Positions 49,425-58,554 of a stretch of 64,000 bases of DNA are shown piece by piece. The position numbers and the translations under genes are program-made. Positions within the stretch are counted from its first letter, which is position 1. The number at the start of each line of letters is the position of its first letter. Source of the stretch: Sphingorhabdus sp. YGSMI21. GTDB lineage: Bacteria; Pseudomonadota; Alphaproteobacteria; Sphingomonadales; Sphingomonadaceae. The stretch covers positions 449,001 to 513,000 of the forward strand of contig NZ_CP022548.1 of the NCBI RefSeq assembly GCF_002776575.1, given 5' to 3'. Under the pieces are notes generated by a model, which saw only the letters and a list, made by a program, of their open reading frames with translations, searched no databases and had not been told where the DNA came from.

Positions 49425-50327
49425 ATGAACTATTTTTACAATTGCTATGATCTGGCCATCGAAAGCGAATTGGCCCTATCCGAAATGGTCGCCTTGTCCG
49501 ACACGCCGGAAACCATAGATGTGCGCATCACGCAGGGCGCGATCAATCCGGATGGCCTGGAAGGGGCCGAGCAAATCGGTCCCTTCCTGTGGGCCACGCC
49601 GAATGCCCTGCAATTGCACGTTCCGGATGTCGCCCGTTTTCTGGTTCGCGACGGCAACAGCATCGTATTTGATCCGGCACCGGGCATAGACGAGGACAGC
49701 GTGAGGGTTTTCATGCTCGGTTCGGCGCTCGGTGCATTATTATTCCAGCGCGGCTATCTTGTGCTGCACGGCAACGCTGTTCAGATCGGCGACGGTTGCA
49801 TCATCTGCGTCGGTCACTCGGGCGCAGGAAAATCAACGCTCGCCGCCGCTTTCATGCAGCGGGGCTATAAATTGCTGGCCGATGATGTCGTGCCAATCGA
49901 CAATGATTGCCTTGCCATCCCGGGCTTCCCACGGATCAAGCTATGGCAGGATGCGGCGGACAAGCTGGAAATCGACACCACGCCCCTCACCCGGATCCGA
50001 CCGGACATGGAAAAATTCAACCTGCCGATCACCGACAATTTTGTACCCGAGCCGCTGCCGGTGAAACATATCTACATCTTGCGCAGCGACGATGAGGATG
50101 GCTTTTCCTCTACCGCTATCAAGGGCTTGCAAAAATTCCCGGCCCTCCATGCCAATACCTATCGCCAGAAATTTCTCGACAGCATGGATTTGCGTCCGGA
50201 CCATCTCAATCTTTGCGGGAAGCTTTCGGGGCAAACAGCGATTACCCGTGTTGTCCGGCCGCGAATGGGGTTTGAAGTCGATCAGCTGGTCGACCATATT
50301 CTGGCTGACCTGTCCGAAAGCGTTTAG
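49425..50327 (+). CDS. HPr-kinase-like serine kinase (lasso-tailoring type)
   Basis: A 300-residue HprK-related protein. LHGNAVQIGDG and the P-loop GHSGAGKST (130-138) are followed by LLADDVVPI, the metal-binding DD of HprK. The N-terminal ~95 residues are not the usual HprK sensor. HprK-like kinases in lasso-peptide clusters (paeninodin type) phosphorylate a Ser of the precursor; here the asparagine synthetase-, PqqD- and B2-like genes next door support that. Sulfotransferase gene follows after 2 bases. Confidence 0.78.
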   Translation: MNYFYNCYDLAIESELALSEMVALSDTPETIDVRITQGAINPDGLEGAEQIGPFLWATPNALQLHVPDVARFLVRDGNSIVFDPAPGIDEDSVRVFMLGSALGALLFQRGYLVLHGNAVQIGDGCIICVGHSGAGKSTLAAAFMQRGYKLLADDVVPIDNDCLAIPGFPRIKLWQDAADKLEIDTTPLTRIRPDMEKFNLPITDNFVPEPLPVKHIYILRSDDEDGFSSTAIKGLQKFPALHANTYRQKFLDSMDLRPDHLNLCGKLSGQTAITRVVRPRMGFEVDQLVDHILADLSESV

Positions 50328-50329
50328 AC

Positions 50330-51184
50330 ATGGGCGCTATTTACTGGCTTTCCTCCTATCCCAAATCCGGCAACACGTGGTTCCGCACGTTCCTGCAGAA
50401 TCTTCAACAGGATGGCGATGCCCCGGTTGACATCAACGAATTGCATACCGGCTCCATTGCCAGTGGCCGTGGCTGGCTGGACGAAGTTCTGGGATTTGAC
50501 ACCGCCGACATGCGGCATGACGATATTGATGCCCTGCGGCCCGCGGTATACGACTGGAGCCTGCAATCGCCGGATCTGGAATATCACAAGATTCATGATG
50601 CCTATACATTTCTGCCGTCCGGAGAGCCATTGGTCAGCAGCAGGGCAACACGGGGCGCAGTCTATTTCGTTCGCAATCCGCTCGACGTGGCATCTTCCTT
50701 TGCCAATCACCTGCAGTGCAGCGTCGATGATGCGATCGTGCGGATGGCATCTCCGAAGATGAGCTTTGTGAAGTCGGAAAAGAGGCTGAACGGCCAGGTA
50801 CGGCAAAAATTGTTCAGCTGGTCCGACCACGTGCTGAGCTGGATCGATGCGCCCGATCTCAATCTGGAAATCCTGCGCTACGAGGATATGCTCGAAGACA
50901 GCCTGGCCACATTCACCCGGGCAGCGCGCTTTCTCGAACTGCCCCATGACCAGCCCCGGGTTGAGAAAGCGATCCATTTCAGTCGCTTTGATCGCTTGCA
51001 GGAACAGGAAAAATCTACCGGATTCAAGGAAAAACCGGCCAACACGCCTTCCTTTTTCCGTCAGGGCAAGAGCGGCGGCTGGCGGCAGGAACTGAACGAG
51101 GAACAGATTACCCGAATCATCGCCGATCACGGACCGGTGATGCGGCGGTTCAACTATCTCGACGAGCACGACAACCCGCTGTAG
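50330..51184 (+). CDS. Sulfotransferase-domain protein
   Basis: A 284-residue PAPS-dependent sulfotransferase. YPKSGNTWFRTFLQ (10-23) is the 5'-phosphosulfate loop; YFVRNPLDVASSF is the 3'-phosphate box. Cytosolic. Only 2 bases from the kinase gene, so the two are co-expressed and may modify the same peptide, or the same carrier. No PAPS-synthesis gene is near. Substrate unknown. Confidence 0.82.
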   Translation: MGAIYWLSSYPKSGNTWFRTFLQNLQQDGDAPVDINELHTGSIASGRGWLDEVLGFDTADMRHDDIDALRPAVYDWSLQSPDLEYHKIHDAYTFLPSGEPLVSSRATRGAVYFVRNPLDVASSFANHLQCSVDDAIVRMASPKMSFVKSEKRLNGQVRQKLFSWSDHVLSWIDAPDLNLEILRYEDMLEDSLATFTRAARFLELPHDQPRVEKAIHFSRFDRLQEQEKSTGFKEKPANTPSFFRQGKSGGWRQELNEEQITRIIADHGPVMRRFNYLDEHDNPL

Positions 51185-51248
51185 ATTTCCGCCTTAAGGA
51201 TATTTTGCCCGGCATCCCGAAAGGCAGGGCGGAACATCGCAAGCCTGT

Positions 51249-52529
51249 TTACCCTGGCAAGGAAGCCAGACGATTTCTCGTCTGAAGCTCCGACAGAAAT
51301 CCTCCCGTCAGGATTTGTGGCAGACTACCGCCGAAGCCGTTGTTGCCTTCCAGCAATATCGGCCCCTGAGGGGTCAAGACCCAGTCCCAGGCAATGGCCC
51401 AAAAATCGGCATAGTGATCATGCGCCGCCAGGCTGTGATCAATCAGCGATTGCCAATCGGGCAGCGGCAAGTGATCGTCGCGTTGCGCCAGCATATCGCG
51501 CTGGTTCTGCCGGGCTTCGGCAAGCAGCAGCATATCGTCTACTATCGGCTGTACCAGCCCGCTTTCTGCATCGACTGGCAGGATGACATAGACGTCGCGC
51601 TTGTCGGACGGCTTCCGCATGGTCGGAATTTCCAGTGTCGCAGACAAAATGCTGCTGCCTTGTTCGCTTCGCCGGGTAATACAGCGGACGGTGATCGCCC
51701 GCCCATCCGGTACCAGCGGTGCCAGTTGCGGATGATTTTGCAACGCCGGCTGCACCAGACCAATGTCCAGCTGCAGCAACGCTTCCCATGCCGCCATCAC
51801 GGATCGTCGATCGGGCAGCGGGTCGCCCTCGAACGTCCGCCCCTCTATGACCTGTCCCATTTTCCAACATTCAAAAGCACCGAGCCCGCGATTACCCGAT
51901 CTGCTTTTGCAAAACAGCCGACGATGTTTTTCAAGAGCGGCGGCAAAATCAAATCCGGTGTCTGCTGAGGCGATTGCCAGGATCGGCGCCATCGGTATGC
52001 CGCGCGCCTGCAGGAAATCCGTGGCGGCAGCCTTGTCAGCCAGCCGGGCCGTCGTCTCCGGCGATATGGCCCGGCGGCTATTCCGCCATCTATGGAACGC
52101 AGCGATATGGCGGTCGCTGACATAGTTCCACAGGCGCGCGGGATGTTCGACAAGTCCGAAGCGATAGGCCTCACCGGGCGGCATGCACGCCCCGATGCTG
52201 ATCCGGACGAGCGTGCAGAACTGGCGTGGTCGTGAAACACCCCGTTCGTCGCGAAGCCTGGTGCCATAACCGCGCAGCGCCCTGAACAGGGCCAGCCAGC
52301 CGAACAACCCTGCCCATTTCAGCCATAATATCGCTTCAACCAGCACGTAGAGCGGCTTCGGCATACCGGGCAAGGCAGTCCAGAATATCTGCCTGTGCGC
52401 CTCAATCTGCGGATTGCTGGTCGACAAATAGCGCCAGCTGACCATCCCGTGCGGGATGTTGCGCCACAAAAGCTCCCGACGAAGCGCCTTGAGCCATCTT
52501 GTGACCTTGCTAGGCAACCGATAGGCCAT
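51249..52529 (-). CDS. ATP-grasp protein (sugar-transfer-associated type)
   Basis: A 426-residue protein with the ATP-grasp fold: nucleotide-binding in the middle (HRRLFCKSRSGNRGLGAFEC) and the metal motif at the end (ILLEGNNGFGG). Resembles the sugar-transfer-associated ATP-grasp family. ATP-grasp enzymes make amide or thioester bonds, so it could modify the peptide; that is inference. It overlaps the end of the asparagine synthetase-like gene by 20 bases and so belongs to the same transcript. Confidence 0.75.
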   Translation of the reverse strand: MAYRLPSKVTRWLKALRRELLWRNIPHGMVSWRYLSTSNPQIEAHRQIFWTALPGMPKPLYVLVEAILWLKWAGLFGWLALFRALRGYGTRLRDERGVSRPRQFCTLVRISIGACMPPGEAYRFGLVEHPARLWNYVSDRHIAAFHRWRNSRRAISPETTARLADKAAATDFLQARGIPMAPILAIASADTGFDFAAALEKHRRLFCKSRSGNRGLGAFECWKMGQVIEGRTFEGDPLPDRRSVMAAWEALLQLDIGLVQPALQNHPQLAPLVPDGRAITVRCITRRSEQGSSILSATLEIPTMRKPSDKRDVYVILPVDAESGLVQPIVDDMLLLAEARQNQRDMLAQRDDHLPLPDWQSLIDHSLAAHDHYADFWAIAWDWVLTPQGPILLEGNNGFGGSLPQILTGGFLSELQTRNRLASLPG

Positions 52530-54396
52530 TGAGCCAGACGTTGAGCCACTTCACAGCCAACATGTGCCGCCTGATCTGGAAATTCGCCTCGGCATCAAAG
52601 CCATGTTTCTCGATCTGGTCGATCTTCGCCCGCCATTTGTCCCGATCTATCATGTCGGCCAGCAGCGGGTGCAGCTCGTCATCAATCTGCTTCATCGTCT
52701 TCACGATTTCGCTGCTGTTGTTCCGCGAGGGAGACTGTCGCTCCCCCATATATTTCGATCTTTTCCATGCCACCCGATCGGGTACTGTTCCGGTAATGGC
52801 CCGGCGGTGCAAATAGCGGCCAATACCGCCCGGACCTGCGCGCTCGATAATCGGCGTGGACAGATATTGCTGGACCAGCCGTTTGTCCCAAAGCGGCCAG
52901 CGATAGTCGATCCCGTAAGATGCAGCCATTAGCGTGCAATTCTCAAGCCGCGTCGGCACATAGGCCATCTGCAACAATCCGCTGATGATCCAGTCATTAT
53001 GCTTGCGATGCACGGCATCGTAGCGCGCCGTTTCCATATATTCCCGCTCCAGATCATAGCGGGCGACAATCTCGTCGCGGAGCGGCTGCTCCGGCCATCT
53101 TTTTTTCCAGACGGCTAGAAAATTCGCATTGTATCCGGCATTTTTGCGCTCCTTATATATACGTCTGAGCAACCGGTAGATGCGCAGCGGCAGCTTCCCC
53201 CGCATCAAGTCTATCGCGGCCTTGTAAGCGCCCTTGTCGATGAGTTCCCGCTGGATGTGGTTGGCGTAATTGGTGACCACCTCGTCGCCACCATAGCCGG
53301 AGAACAATGTCCTGATGCCGTATAGCTGGCACTGATCGTAGAACGGCCGGTGCGACGTGGCATTGCCATGTTCTTCCGGATAGCCGAGAATTTCCAGATC
53401 TTCCCGCATCTGCTCGTCCGAAAAGCCGGACCTCCCATATTGGGAAGTATTGATATGGTTATGGACGATTGACGCCGCCTGACTGGTTTCCAGAATATAG
53501 GCCGGCTCCTCTTCCGAGAGCGCGAAGCCGAAACTGTGCAACCGATCGCCCGGATCGCCCATGAACTTGCCAAGATAGGCCGTGATGGTCGCGGAATCGA
53601 TACCACCGCTATTTTCCGTGCCAAGCGTATAGTCGCTGACCATCTGGGAGCGCATTGTCTCCTCCAGAACCGCGCGATAGGCCTCGACACGTTGCGGGTC
53701 GCGGGTAAAGACATCCGGTGCATCATCGCGCCAATGATGATAGCGGCGCAATTCATGGCGCCCTTCGCCGATGCTCAGCGAATGACCGCCGGGCAATTTC
53801 ATGATTTCCTTGAAGGCCGTCCGGTCATGGCTCTTTGATTGGCCGATGACATAGCGCGCGATCCATTCCGGATCGGGGGTTGGCCGTGCATTTCCTAGTT
53901 TGAGCAGCGCTGCTGAAGTGGAAGCGAAAAGCAGACCCTGTTCATGCGGCCAGTAATAGAGCGGCTTTACTCCGACCGGATCGCGGGCGAGAAAGGCCGT
54001 CCGCCGTTCGCTGTCCATAATGGCCAGCGCAAAATCGCCGGTCAGCTTCTCCGGCAGGCTCTCCCCCCATTTCAACCATCCGGCAAGTATAAGTCTCGCA
54101 TCGGGGGTTTCATCCAGTGGCCGGTCGAGTAACAGTTGCGCGGCCAATTCATCGCGATTGTCCAGCCTGCCCCAGAACGCGACGCGGAGCCGGTCTGACA
54201 CCAGCGGGACCGATCCGATATGACGGGATGACGGCGTATTGAAAATATCCGCCTCGACCAGCAAGCCATGCTCATCGCGCTGGTAGCCACTCACGTCCGG
54301 CTTGTACCGAGGGTAAAGGGAAGAGACCCAGACGTCCGGTGTAATCCATGCTTCAACCGGGGGAGAATTATCGAAACACAGCAGTCCGGCAAACAT
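52510..54396 (-). CDS. Asparagine synthetase-like lasso cyclase candidate
   Basis: A 628-residue AsnB-like protein. The N-terminal Ntn-type region begins MFAGLL: position 2 is Phe, so the glutaminase nucleophile Cys2 of true AsnB is missing. The synthetase half has the ATP loop SGGIDS (263-268). Lasso cyclases use this domain to adenylate an Asp/Glu side chain for macrolactam closure. Start set at ATG 54396; an upstream in-frame GTG (54558) lacks a ribosome site. Divergent from the PqqD-like gene; ATP-grasp gene overlaps its end. Confidence 0.8.
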   Translation of the reverse strand: MFAGLLCFDNSPPVEAWITPDVWVSSLYPRYKPDVSGYQRDEHGLLVEADIFNTPSSRHIGSVPLVSDRLRVAFWGRLDNRDELAAQLLLDRPLDETPDARLILAGWLKWGESLPEKLTGDFALAIMDSERRTAFLARDPVGVKPLYYWPHEQGLLFASTSAALLKLGNARPTPDPEWIARYVIGQSKSHDRTAFKEIMKLPGGHSLSIGEGRHELRRYHHWRDDAPDVFTRDPQRVEAYRAVLEETMRSQMVSDYTLGTENSGGIDSATITAYLGKFMGDPGDRLHSFGFALSEEEPAYILETSQAASIVHNHINTSQYGRSGFSDEQMREDLEILGYPEEHGNATSHRPFYDQCQLYGIRTLFSGYGGDEVVTNYANHIQRELIDKGAYKAAIDLMRGKLPLRIYRLLRRIYKERKNAGYNANFLAVWKKRWPEQPLRDEIVARYDLEREYMETARYDAVHRKHNDWIISGLLQMAYVPTRLENCTLMAASYGIDYRWPLWDKRLVQQYLSTPIIERAGPGGIGRYLHRRAITGTVPDRVAWKRSKYMGERQSPSRNNSSEIVKTMKQIDDELHPLLADMIDRDKWRAKIDQIEKHGFDAEANFQIRRHMLAVKWLNVWLNGLSVA

Positions 54397-54570
54397 ATAT
54401 TTGATCACACGATTGTTGATAGGGTCTTCAAGACAACTAGGGCGATATCGCGCTTGAGGCCAGCGCTTTTCACAATGCGGCAAGCCTCTTCCCCTCACCC
54501 GCTCGTATGGATTGCAAGCCAGACTTGCCTTTGATAGTGCTGTGGCAAATCTAATCACGAGAGATTTTTT

Positions 54571-54855
54571 ATGAGCGAACTGAAACTCGACAGCATCGTC
54601 CGGAGAAACCCTGAAATGGTGTCCGCCGACATGGATGGCGAAATGGTGATGATGAGCATCGAAGACAGCGCCTATTACGGGTTGAACGCGGTCGGCTCCA
54701 ATCTGTGGGAGGCCATGGAAGAACCTGTAAGCGTTACCGCCCTATGTGATCATGTGACCCGAAATTTCGATATCGACCTGGCGACTTGCCAGAGCGATGT
54801 CATGGAATTGCTGACAGATTTGCGCGAGCGCAATCTGGTGCAGTTGGCAGGATAG
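54571..54855 (+). CDS. PqqD-like RiPP recognition element (lasso B1)
   Basis: A 94-residue PqqD-fold protein (SIVRRNPEMVSADMDGEMVM, then YYGLNAVGSNLWEAMEEP, VMELLTDLRERNLV). PqqD-like proteins bind RiPP leader peptides and bring them to the maturases. GAGAG at good spacing supports the start. Followed after 35 bases by the B2-like gene, the usual split B1/B2 arrangement of lasso clusters. Confidence 0.9.
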   Translation: MSELKLDSIVRRNPEMVSADMDGEMVMMSIEDSAYYGLNAVGSNLWEAMEEPVSVTALCDHVTRNFDIDLATCQSDVMELLTDLRERNLVQLAG

Positions 54856-54890
54856 CAAATGGAGGGTTTTCTCCTCCCGTTGCAACGGAC

Positions 54891-55364
54891 ATGATCAAGA
54901 CCCTGAAAAGAAAATTTGCGACGGCCAGGCAACTGCCGCCCCTATTCTATCTCTGGCTCGGCCCGGCGTGGGTACTGTTGGGACTGAGCCGCTTCGTCAT
55001 TCTGACCATGACGTTCAAACGTTTCGCCCATTGGCTCGGCATGCACGACGGTCTCGCCCCGCGCACACCGCTGATCACGGCTGCTCAGGAAAAGCGCGCC
55101 CGGGCGATCAGCAGCGCAATCATCTTCGCGGCGAAATTTGCACCCTGGAAAGCCAATTGTTTTCCCCAGGCGATCACCGCGCGGCTGATATTGGGACTAT
55201 ATGATATCCCCTATGCGCTCTTCTTCGGCTTGATGCGCAGCAAGCAGGAAGAGGATCGGGGCGAGATCAAGGCCCATGCATGGGTTGTGTCGGGCCGTGT
55301 CAATGTTACCGGCGGCCGCAGCTTTGGACAATTCACGTCGGTGGGCTGCTTCGTTTCGAAATAA
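54891..55364 (+). CDS. Lasso-peptide B2-like cysteine protease
   Basis: A 157-residue transglutaminase-like protein (lasso B2 family) that removes the leader peptide. N-terminal hydrophobic helix (LFYLWLGPAWVLLGLSRFVIL), then Cys90 (APWKANCFPQA) and His129 (KAHAWVVSG). The third catalytic residue, normally Asp about 10-12 residues after His, is not evident; the region reads SGRVNVTGG. Start ATG 54891; an 11-codon reading frame upstream ends across it (ATGA). Pairs with the PqqD-like gene. Confidence 0.85.
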   Translation: MIKTLKRKFATARQLPPLFYLWLGPAWVLLGLSRFVILTMTFKRFAHWLGMHDGLAPRTPLITAAQEKRARAISSAIIFAAKFAPWKANCFPQAITARLILGLYDIPYALFFGLMRSKQEEDRGEIKAHAWVVSGRVNVTGGRSFGQFTSVGCFVSK

Positions 55365-56271: not shown

Positions 56272-58356
56272 TCAGCGAGCCGGGCCGTCAATCCAGAAAT
56301 TCTGGCGCAAGGGATCATCTGCACCGGCGCTGCTGTCCGGTTCCGATTGTTCAATAACCACGAAGTCATCAAGCAGGATCGCGCCTTCTCCGTCTCCTTT
56401 CATCTGCAGGATCGGGCGGGTCGGCAACGGCTTGCCTTTTGCTGTACGCGGTGGCGGAAAATCAAAGCGGAAATGCTGCCAGCTTCCCGCCGCTATCGCT
56501 TTTGATCCTGCCGCTTTCCACTCGGCTTCCTTCAGGGACAGAAACCGTCCAACGCCCGGCGATCGTGATTGCAGGGACAGCGAAAGCTGTAGTGGCGCGT
56601 CTGCCCTGATCCATCCGGCAACGGAATAAGCCGAGCCTTCCAGTACCCGCAGGAATGTCCGTGGCATTATCGCGACCTCGTCCCCGCCCGGCCTTTTCTG
56701 AAGCGCCAGTGCGTATCGGCCGGACCGGCTGTCTTGGGATAGCGCGGCCTCGGCATTTCGAACCTCCCAGCTCTGGTCAACCGCGTCTTCATAGCGGGCT
56801 GCCTCAAAATCCCCACGATGCCAGATATCCTTAGCTGCAGCCAGATTGCCGATATCTTGACCGGCGCAGGACACGGGACCTTGTTCAAGGTCGAAAGGCA
56901 AGCGCCACATTCCGTTTTCGGCGGTTTCTGCAACAGGGCAGGCCGGAGCCGGACTGCCGGAGATATGGGCTTTATTGCTGATAACTCCATGACCACCTGA
57001 CATCGACATTTCAGTGCCCAGGGCCCGTGACTGGCTGAACAGCCGGCGCAACACACCTTCCCGCATGCCGGCAACGGCCGGCACCGGTCGATAGTCCAGC
57101 AATTGCACCGGAATGGCTTCCGCTCGGTAGAATTGATCACCGTCCATCCAGACCTTGAGCACATAGGCGAGCTGCGCTTCGAAAAAATACTGGTCGAAGA
57201 CGAAATTCCCCAGCGAATAGGCGATCAGTTTGCCCTGATATATCTCCAGCCCGTGGGTGACGTGCGGATGATGGGCGACCACCAGGTCGGCCCCCGCGTC
57301 GACGGCCGTCCGCAGGCGGGATTGCGTGATTTCCGTCGGTGAATCGCTATATTCGCGACTGCCGTGATATTGCACGACCGCGATCCTGCCGGCAGCGGAT
57401 TCGCGTTTCACCGCCCGGCCTATATTGCCGGCGCTCCCGTGGGCCGCCCCGCCCTTGTCTTTGCCGGCAACCTGATTGGGAGAGACTCTGCCCGCCCATC
57501 CGACAAAGCCGAGCATCGAATAATCATGCCCGCCAATATCAATTTGTGCGGCCTTGAGCGCTTGCTCTGCCCTGCGGCCCGCGCCGGAATACAGCAGACC
57601 TGCCGCATCCAGCGCCGCCGTCGTCGATTCCAGGCCAACATCGAGATAGTCGTAGATATGGTTGTTGCCCAAGGTCACATAGTCGATGCCGGCGTTTTTC
57701 AGGGCCGCAGCGCTATCGGGGTGGCTGTAGAAGGTAATCGATTTCGGCGCCCGCTGCGCCGGCTTGCTGGCCGAAACTATTGTTTCCAGGTTCACCGCGG
57801 CGAAATCCGATGCCTGCAAATAGGGCGCCATTGGCGCCAGCAGCGCTTGCATATCGCTGGCCCTGCTAGCCGGGCGGATCAGCGGCGACGCGCGGAAGCT
57901 GGGCTTTTCATAACGGCGCCCCATCATGACATCACCGCCGAAGATCATTTCGACCCGGCCCGGCTTGCGTGCAACAAGTTCGATCTTCGGAACGATATAA
58001 TGACCATTGTCCGAACGCTGCAATTCTGTCTGGGCGAACGTATAGATGCCTGTGAAGAGCGACCGGCTGTCAAAACGAAGCTGATAGATATCCGCCTGCA
58101 CCACGCGTCCGGCATAGCGACCGTCATCCTGCGCCCCGAGTTTTTGACCGTTGACCGAAATCGACACATCATCGGCGGAAAGCGGTCCTTCATCGGCGAC
58201 CACCCTTCCCTCGATCATAACCATTTCAGGCTGGCTGGCGAGAAGCGGCATGTAAGCGGCGAGGCAGGCCATAAACGCGAACGCAAGGATATGGCAGCCA
58301 GCTCTGACAAGGCTGAACTGATGCCGGCTTGCAGCCTGCGGCTTCCCAAAACTCAT
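56272..58356 (-). CDS. CapA-family protein with extra domains
   Basis: A 694-residue exported protein. N-terminal membrane anchor (about 17-40), then a carboxypeptidase-regulatory-like beta domain (45-120), the CapA metallophosphatase-like domain (about 130-430; FGGDVMMGRRYE, YVTLGNNHIYDY, VAHHPHVTHG) and a C-terminal jelly-roll-like, possibly carbohydrate-binding domain (about 490-670). CapA-type proteins take part in poly-gamma-glutamate or capsule synthesis, but no capB/capC is here. Start from GAGGG before ATG 58356; a longer start at 58437 is possible. Confidence 0.82.
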   Translation of the reverse strand: MSFGKPQAASRHQFSLVRAGCHILAFAFMACLAAYMPLLASQPEMVMIEGRVVADEGPLSADDVSISVNGQKLGAQDDGRYAGRVVQADIYQLRFDSRSLFTGIYTFAQTELQRSDNGHYIVPKIELVARKPGRVEMIFGGDVMMGRRYEKPSFRASPLIRPASRASDMQALLAPMAPYLQASDFAAVNLETIVSASKPAQRAPKSITFYSHPDSAAALKNAGIDYVTLGNNHIYDYLDVGLESTTAALDAAGLLYSGAGRRAEQALKAAQIDIGGHDYSMLGFVGWAGRVSPNQVAGKDKGGAAHGSAGNIGRAVKRESAAGRIAVVQYHGSREYSDSPTEITQSRLRTAVDAGADLVVAHHPHVTHGLEIYQGKLIAYSLGNFVFDQYFFEAQLAYVLKVWMDGDQFYRAEAIPVQLLDYRPVPAVAGMREGVLRRLFSQSRALGTEMSMSGGHGVISNKAHISGSPAPACPVAETAENGMWRLPFDLEQGPVSCAGQDIGNLAAAKDIWHRGDFEAARYEDAVDQSWEVRNAEAALSQDSRSGRYALALQKRPGGDEVAIMPRTFLRVLEGSAYSVAGWIRADAPLQLSLSLQSRSPGVGRFLSLKEAEWKAAGSKAIAAGSWQHFRFDFPPPRTAKGKPLPTRPILQMKGDGEGAILLDDFVVIEQSEPDSSAGADDPLRQNFWIDGPAR

Positions 58357-58554
58357 GATGACCCTCGCTTTCCCGATATGCGTGCCTTTTCCAGTCAGGC
58401 GACGTCGACAATTTGATAACCGAAAGCCGGAAAACATCCAACATGCTCATCGTTCAAAGGCGCATAGCCAAAGGCTATGCCAGACATGTCGAACGATATT
58501 GGATGATCGCCGGCAATATGCACAGAGTAGCTGCTCTAGTCATTGGAAGAACGT

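Follow-up and report, generated by a model that had tools for sequence, protein, structure and literature searches.

A probable paeninodin-type lasso peptide locus of Sphingorhabdus and its putative precursor genes elsewhere on the chromosome

We analyzed a stretch of 64,000 nucleotides, hereafter the window, from Sphingorhabdus sp. YGSMI21 (G000:C1:449001-513000, where G000 is the source genome; other G numbers denote relatives and L numbers fetched loci). Six genes within 6 kb of the window encode an HprK-like kinase, a sulfotransferase, an ATP-grasp protein, an AsnB-like protein, a PqqD protein and a B2 protein. Judging from the sequences, they very probably form a lasso peptide maturation locus of the paeninodin type that is served by fast-changing precursor genes scattered over the chromosome outside the cluster. 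A first-pass annotation of this DNA had proposed a lasso-type pathway without a visible local precursor, the substrate perhaps being encoded elsewhere, and our results bear this out. All six genes are open between positions 49425 and 55364, and Pfam and NCBIfam models confirmed their families. A family profile run over the 1614 six-frame segments of the window revealed no precursor (best E 0.76). The genome-wide precursor search that the annotation had called for was run over the source genome and relatives and yielded unlinked open reading frames (ORFs) with the leader motif, among them five precursor-like ORFs on the same contig as the cluster, distributed over four other loci. The contrary outcome that it had named, a conserved gene set with a precursor nowhere, did not occur.

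The search started from profile A2, made of six cluster-linked precursors, none of them from the source genome, and covered six whole genomes. It gave 26 matches, namely its own 6 rows, 18 matches with a Ser-ending ORF, and 2 matches, L111 and L114, that were dropped as no precursor-like ORF was present there. Four places of the source genome were matched, with E values of 0.0012 to 0.44, and all read as short ORFs with a Y-[EQ]-K-P-[EI]-L leader and a Ser end. The wider profile A3 (14 rows) added a fifth ORF, itself absent from the A3 rows, at E 4.2e-9. The five ORFs are located at C1:1719968-1720126 (+), C1:1720420-1720590 (+), C1:1996307-1996453 (+; site B, L136), C1:about 2354538-2354687 (-) and C1:3498752-3498916 (+). 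The nearest is 1.2 Mb from the B2 gene along the contig, or 0.86 Mb from the kinase gene if the contig is circular. Rescoring of the five ORFs after removal of every source-genome row gave E values of 7e-14 to 1e-4, and removal of the shared-site rows too gave 8e-10 to 6e-5, assuming 110,000 ORFs in both cases. Together with two relatives, Sphingorhabdus sp. 109 (G003) and G024, we counted 18 unlinked precursors: 5 in the source genome, 4 in G003 and 9 in G024. The 18 Ser-ending matches of A2 correspond to 17 of these and one ORF of G054. The 22 members of a further profile, A4, had no match in NCBIfam and only three single matches in Pfam (E 0.15 to 0.25), and one precursor searched against 72,556 plasmid records had no match.

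Four of the five ORFs of the source genome resemble lasso precursors in that they combine a Y-x-K-P-x-L leader with Gly, Ala or Ser at core position +1, Glu at +8 or +9 and a C-terminal Ser. A YxxPx[L/V] leader, a small residue at +1 and an Asp or Glu at positions 7-9 were likewise found together in 4/5 ORFs of the source genome and in 15/18 over the three genomes. A core defined by its junction is present in 15/18 unlinked ORFs, the three without a junction being the site B ORFs. An acid stands at +8 or +9 in 15/15 cores, compared with a mean of 2.97 after shuffling and 15 reached in 0/20,000 shuffles; this count left out the three site B ORFs and the cluster-linked precursors of L078, L083 and L084. 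In the three genomes, every one of the 18 unlinked precursors ends in Ser. This residue is not what found them, because in 16/18 the profile match ended before the last profile position. The phosphorylation suggested by the first-pass annotation is made likelier by this constant C-terminal Ser. In paeninodin-type systems, PadeK phosphorylates the C-terminal Ser, a residue described as extremely well conserved among the precursors that belong to kinase clusters (PMC9266682). Shine-Dalgarno-like tetramers precede 17/18 starts, against a background of 16%, the starts being partly our choice.

Co-distribution of the ORFs with the enzymes was assessed at three levels. Over 98 genomes, A3 matched only G000, G003, G024 and G004 at E<=1e-9, G004 having a single copy without a proper core. 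The remaining A3 matches were G033's own precursor, G054 precursors, relics or chance-level matches. Over 397 genomes of the family, A4 matched eight at E<=0.001 (G000, G024, G033, G054, G135, G226, G237 and G280), all of which are among the 69/397 with a kinase at E<=1e-20. For the four matching genomes outside the profile, the co-occurrence with the kinase has p = 7e-4, the A4 and kinase searches having used two 397-genome draws from the same request that we took as the same set. The third level was the genus, where we relied on precursor sites recognizable by their flanks. Three such sites are shared: A, with two precursors in the source genome, three in G024 and one in G003; B, in all three genomes; and C, in G003 and G024. 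The gene downstream of site A was tried as a genus-wide anchor, but it was found in only 2/32 genomes, and site B was used instead. Its anchor, an NlpC/P60 gene, was found in 30/32 genus genomes, and the 1500 bases upstream were read in all 30. The site B ORF is intact in exactly three of these 30, all three cluster bearing (p = 2.5e-4). Remains were seen in two, G029, with no start codon, and G008, where the motif Pro is lost, and nothing better than E 5 was detected in the 1500 bases upstream in the other 25 genomes.

Outside site B, the cores change more than the leaders in 4/4 compared pairs. In the best-matched site A pair, 11/18 core codons and 4/37 leader codons carry amino acid changes, and in the site C pair 11/16 and 9/31, respectively. 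For two further pairs from site A, which we matched up ourselves, the values were 14/20 against 14/32 and 8/19 against 10/32. At site B, the last 18 residues, SEIHEKTDALLTSLFRAS, are identical in G000, G003_2059 and G024_3100, although each pair differs by 5 synonymous changes. Precursor-like ORFs stand in tandem runs of three to five in one other genus, in G237 (L175) and G054 (L170, L178 and L183). The ORFs of G237, G280 (L173) and G054 have W-x-[KRT]-P-x-L-type leaders, changing cores and a Ser end. Because the G237 run is on a different contig from the kinase found, and the G280 ORF is 230 kb away from it, unlinked precursors may extend beyond the genus of the window; weaker kinases may also lie nearby. 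Next to the site A precursors, we noted a gene for an 1102-residue protein with FG-GAP/ASPIC-UnbV and permease matches (L135:7662-10970 and L137:8505-11813), present in 2/32 genus genomes, for which a role in export or as a receptor is possible.

The six genes of the window make up three transcription units. The first-pass annotation had described two facing transcripts, but three units were counted, HprK-sulfotransferase (+), AsnB-ATP-grasp (-) and PqqD-B2 (+), with AsnB and PqqD divergent. The PqqD protein is a discrete RRE (B1; 54571-54855, +; Pfam PqqD) that exceeds the curated NCBIfam lasso RRE cut-off (NF033536, 84.2 vs 80 bits), and its nearest solved chain is the lasso PqqD chaperone 9x90_B (E 2.2e-15), followed by TbiB1. 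The B2 leader peptidase (54891-55364, +; Pfam Transglut_core3) exceeds the corresponding B2 cut-off (NF033537, 67.5 vs 33 bits), and its Cys and His columns are invariant across 7 sequences. The AsnB-like putative lasso cyclase, or C protein (52510-54396, -; Pfam Asn_synthase and GATase_7), has the ATP site NSGGIDS; its start was set at MFAGLL, which is common to homologues. The kinase (49425-50327, +; Pfam Hpr_kinase_C) contains LHGN, the P-loop GHSGAGKST and LADD, in agreement with the H-G-G-G-K-S/T-D-D motif given for BsfK (PMC10368454). GKS is invariant in 7 aligned sequences, and the His and second Asp are found in 6/7. Against the HPr-rel-A system model TIGR04352, the kinase scored 39 bits for a cut-off of 200. 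The sulfotransferase (50330-51184, +; Pfam Sulfotransfer_1, 4.9e-23) is of the PAPS-dependent type. Its gene is intact by motif, with YPKSGNTW kept in 6/6 aligned sequences, and it adjoins the kinase gene in related clusters too. The ATP-grasp gene (51249-52529, -) shares 20 bases with the end of AsnB. When its product was considered as a graspetide-type ligase, it matched only ATPgrasp_ST in Pfam, a 'sugar-transfer associated' family; no PDB relative was found at E<=1, and an AlphaFold2 model from 7 sequences (mean pLDDT 53.5) was too poor for a fold search. The divergent promoter region between AsnB and PqqD (54397-54570) shows conserved blocks and no conserved ORF in a three-species alignment inspected by eye. 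The source genome has a single PqqD (E<=0.01), a single B2 (E<=0.001), a single AsnB-like protein (E<=1e-30) and a single HprK-like kinase (E<=1e-10).

Inside the window, the gaps were translated and aligned among the three species, and no conserved small ORF was seen by eye. An ORF ending in DVQA or DVQT upstream of HprK seemed conserved by eye but was rejected: its frame is closed in G024, and the block looks like a promoter. A loose leader-motif scan returned nine window ORFs, three of them ending in Ser; none was family-like by eye or scored better than E 0.76 with the profile. Precursors do occur in cis in related clusters. In G033 (L072 2327-2479 -), G165 (L239 4944-5111 -) and G315 (L236 13485-13637 +), a precursor directly follows AsnB, and in the genus of the window the ATP-grasp gene stands there instead. 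Other cluster-linked precursors were found elsewhere in kinase clusters of G003 (L083), G024 (L078 and L084) and G054 (L076). The cis precursors have a [Y/W]xxPx[L/V]-type leader and a Ser end, that of G315, which was picked by eye, having Met at the last position of the leader motif and a weak profile score (E 0.039). Tail-collar-like proteins, recognized by eye, are encoded beside the cis precursors of G033 (L072:1044-2209) and G165 (L239:4269-4847), which belong to the same genus. The G185 locus (L237) combines a kinase and PqqD with B2 and an AsnB-like gene, and a reading of 14 kb there revealed no precursor; it may be another candidate for unlinked precursors, or the profile may have missed the precursor.

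The six genes are found in the same order, alongside the same ExbB/ExbD/TonB/receptor operon, in G024, whose homologues match the window genes nearly full length. G003 also has all six; as its AsnB is split, they lie in two separate parts of the contig. In that protein, residues 2-547 are encoded about 104 kb from the contig end and residues 514-629 at the contig start (L011:10001-11638 and L010:1-349), residues 514-547 being present twice, which reflects either a large insertion or an assembly join. The ATP-grasp protein was detected at >60% identity in 3/98 relatives (G000, G003 and G024), with distant matches in five more, and in 2/397 family genomes (G000 and G024). G002 retains a remnant of the cluster, a truncated PqqD and an intact B2 (75% identity), between ExbB and the next gene (L080:6380-7380); this genome, 80% complete, has three other PqqD genes and no match for ATP-grasp, AsnB or the kinase. 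A transporter-like gene, called by eye, follows B2 in G024 (L013:16403-17641) and, by alignment, in G003 (L011), and in the window an SDR gene is found instead. L078 and L084 in G024 and L083 in G003 are further kinase/PqqD clusters with glycosyltransferase-like and halogenase-like tailoring genes, identified by eye. Their cis precursors end in Ser, and the B2 model had no match in L078 or L084.

By analogy with the named families, the RRE would bind the Y-x-K-P-x-L leader of each precursor and the HprK-like kinase would phosphorylate the C-terminal Ser. B2 would then cleave ahead of core residue 1, and the AsnB-like cyclase would link the amine of that residue (Gly, Ser or Ala) to Glu8 or Glu9. 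The sulfotransferase may place a sulfate on some Ser, Thr or Tyr, its position being a guess. The ATP-grasp protein, having taken the place of the cis precursor, might form an extra amide, perhaps on core Lys2, which is also a guess. A single enzyme set would thereby give several lasso peptides, with the leader kept and the core fast changing. A fuller version seems to us rather unlikely as a whole: a promiscuous locus and dispersed precursors subject to birth and death would give phosphorylated and sulfated lasso peptides, an ATP-grasp bond at Lys2 would define a new bicyclic lasso class, and the invariant site B peptide would act as a linear signal of its own, produced by this RRE and kinase.

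Several observations weigh against a lasso locus served by scattered precursors. Regarding the searches, the A2 rows were selected partly for their Ser end, A3 and A4 include rows from genomes that are counted with them, and A3 gave some match at E<=1 in 17/98 genomes, cluster-free ones included. Lys2 is invariant in 14 A3 rows; the core junction was defined as [TSAV][EDA][GSA]K, and Lys2 is thus part of the pattern. Leader position -2 is Thr in only 8/15 cores (Ser 2, Ala 3, Val 2); Ile or Val at this position is known in phosphorylated lasso precursors, those of Sphingomonadales included (PMC10368454). The site B ORF of the source genome, ending in SEIHEKTDALLTSLFRAS, has neither junction nor acid at +8/+9. 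In the front part of site B, 8 to 10 of 24 codons have changed, and at this site it is thus the leader that changes while the core stays constant. For G004, G008 and G029, decay was assessed by eye, and these genomes are incomplete (67, 82 and 89%). Two of the five fetched outgroup kinase loci, G185 and G225, showed no precursor, the G225 locus consisting of the kinase only, and the G334 locus has only a loose motif candidate. For the enzymes, the top model of AsnB is the lasso cyclase NF033535, below its cut-off (230 vs 525 bits), there is no exporter gene among the six, and AsnB is interrupted in G003. Finally, G003 and G024 carry further PqqD genes, which prevents an exclusive assignment of their ORFs to this locus and leaves the source genome as the only clean case.

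Since it has no junction and no ring acid, the site B ORF is not a standard lasso core, even though its leader fits. Its peptide is perhaps a conserved linear product or a regulator of the same machinery. This peptide without a ring acid also favors the alternative that the scattered ORFs are true substrates of the RRE and kinase whose products are linear phosphopeptides or other non-lasso compounds, with B2 and AsnB acting on few or none of them. The LPP biosynthetic gene clusters likewise use the [Y/W]xxPx[V/L] leader together with an RRE and HprK, and most of them are without lasso enzymes (PMC13381572). Nevertheless, the window has open B2 and AsnB genes with full-length matches in G024, and the acid at +8/+9 is present in all 15 other cores, which makes this alternative improbable. 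It is even less probable that the scattered ORFs are leftovers of a cluster now decaying or idle after the loss of its own precursor. Such a loss is seen in G002, with its truncated PqqD and intact B2, and the interrupted AsnB of G003 points the same way. However, all six reading frames of the window are open, with nearly full-length matches in G024, the site B core is the same in three species despite 5 synonymous changes per pair, and the number of precursors at site A differs among the three genomes, with changing cores. The remaining explanation, that the enzymes of the locus act on a non-ribosomal or protein substrate and the small ORFs encode unrelated regulators whose distribution is the same by chance, would fit the 'sugar-transfer associated' family of the ATP-grasp protein and the lack of an exporter among the six, but the combination of leader motif, Shine-Dalgarno sequence, ring acid, C-terminal Ser and co-distribution makes it the least credible of all.

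The reading that we prefer, a lasso locus with scattered precursors, relates to several known systems. Paeninodin-type systems (PadeK, ThcoK, SyanK) share with the window the B1, B2 and (putative here) C proteins, the HprK-like kinase and the precursor C-terminal Ser (PMC9266682). Unlike them, the window system has several unlinked precursors per genome, an added ATP-grasp and three transcription units, with no nucleotidyltransferase or exporter among its six genes. The sphingomonad clusters of G315, G165 and G033 have HprK, sulfotransferase, PqqD, B2 and AsnB homologues and a precursor Ser end as well, but their precursor is in cis directly after AsnB, their genes are on one strand, and there is no ATP-grasp match. 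LPP phosphopeptides of Bacillota are alike in their RRE, HprK kinase and [Y/W]xxP leaders, whereas their core set is without B2 or cyclase and their leader removal is signal peptidase-like (PMC13381572). Prochlorosins and synechococsins (ProcM, ProcA) are similar in that one promiscuous enzyme acts on many precursors, which may be encoded at scattered positions in the genome (PMC10783134). They differ by their lanthipeptide chemistry; here there are lasso enzymes and Y-x-K-P-x-L leaders, and 5 precursors in the source genome compared with 29 and 79. If the ORFs are substrates, as their sequences suggest, one enzyme set with several unlinked precursors in the source genome would represent a prochlorosin-like organization.

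Lasso enzymes, the kinase and scattered prochlorosin precursors are already known from the accessible literature, as is the sulfotransferase gene, noted in some Firmicutes lasso clusters (PMC8498205). No report of dispersed lasso precursors of this kind was found in the literature searched, in which coverage of subscription journals was poor, and no ATP-grasp in a lasso cluster was found in the accessible parts of the articles examined. What appears new is a lasso locus without a cis precursor that would serve unlinked, fast-changing precursors, a union not found in the literature searched. Clusters like that of the window look empty because lasso precursors are normally sought beside their enzymes. 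If precursors can be scattered, 'orphan' lasso clusters have findable substrates. A single factory could then supply a varied and changing family of peptides, and such a naturally promiscuous set of lasso enzymes, complete with kinase and sulfotransferase, would be a ready tool for lasso libraries. The joint loss of enzymes and precursors across one genus offers a natural test of the purpose of the peptides.

A CapA/PGA_cap-family gene farther along the window (56272-58437) was set aside, having no match beside the G024 cluster. Its product matches the lasso epimerase MslH only weakly (51 bits vs a cut-off of 700), and the gene adjoins a D-amino-acid dehydrogenase-like gene.

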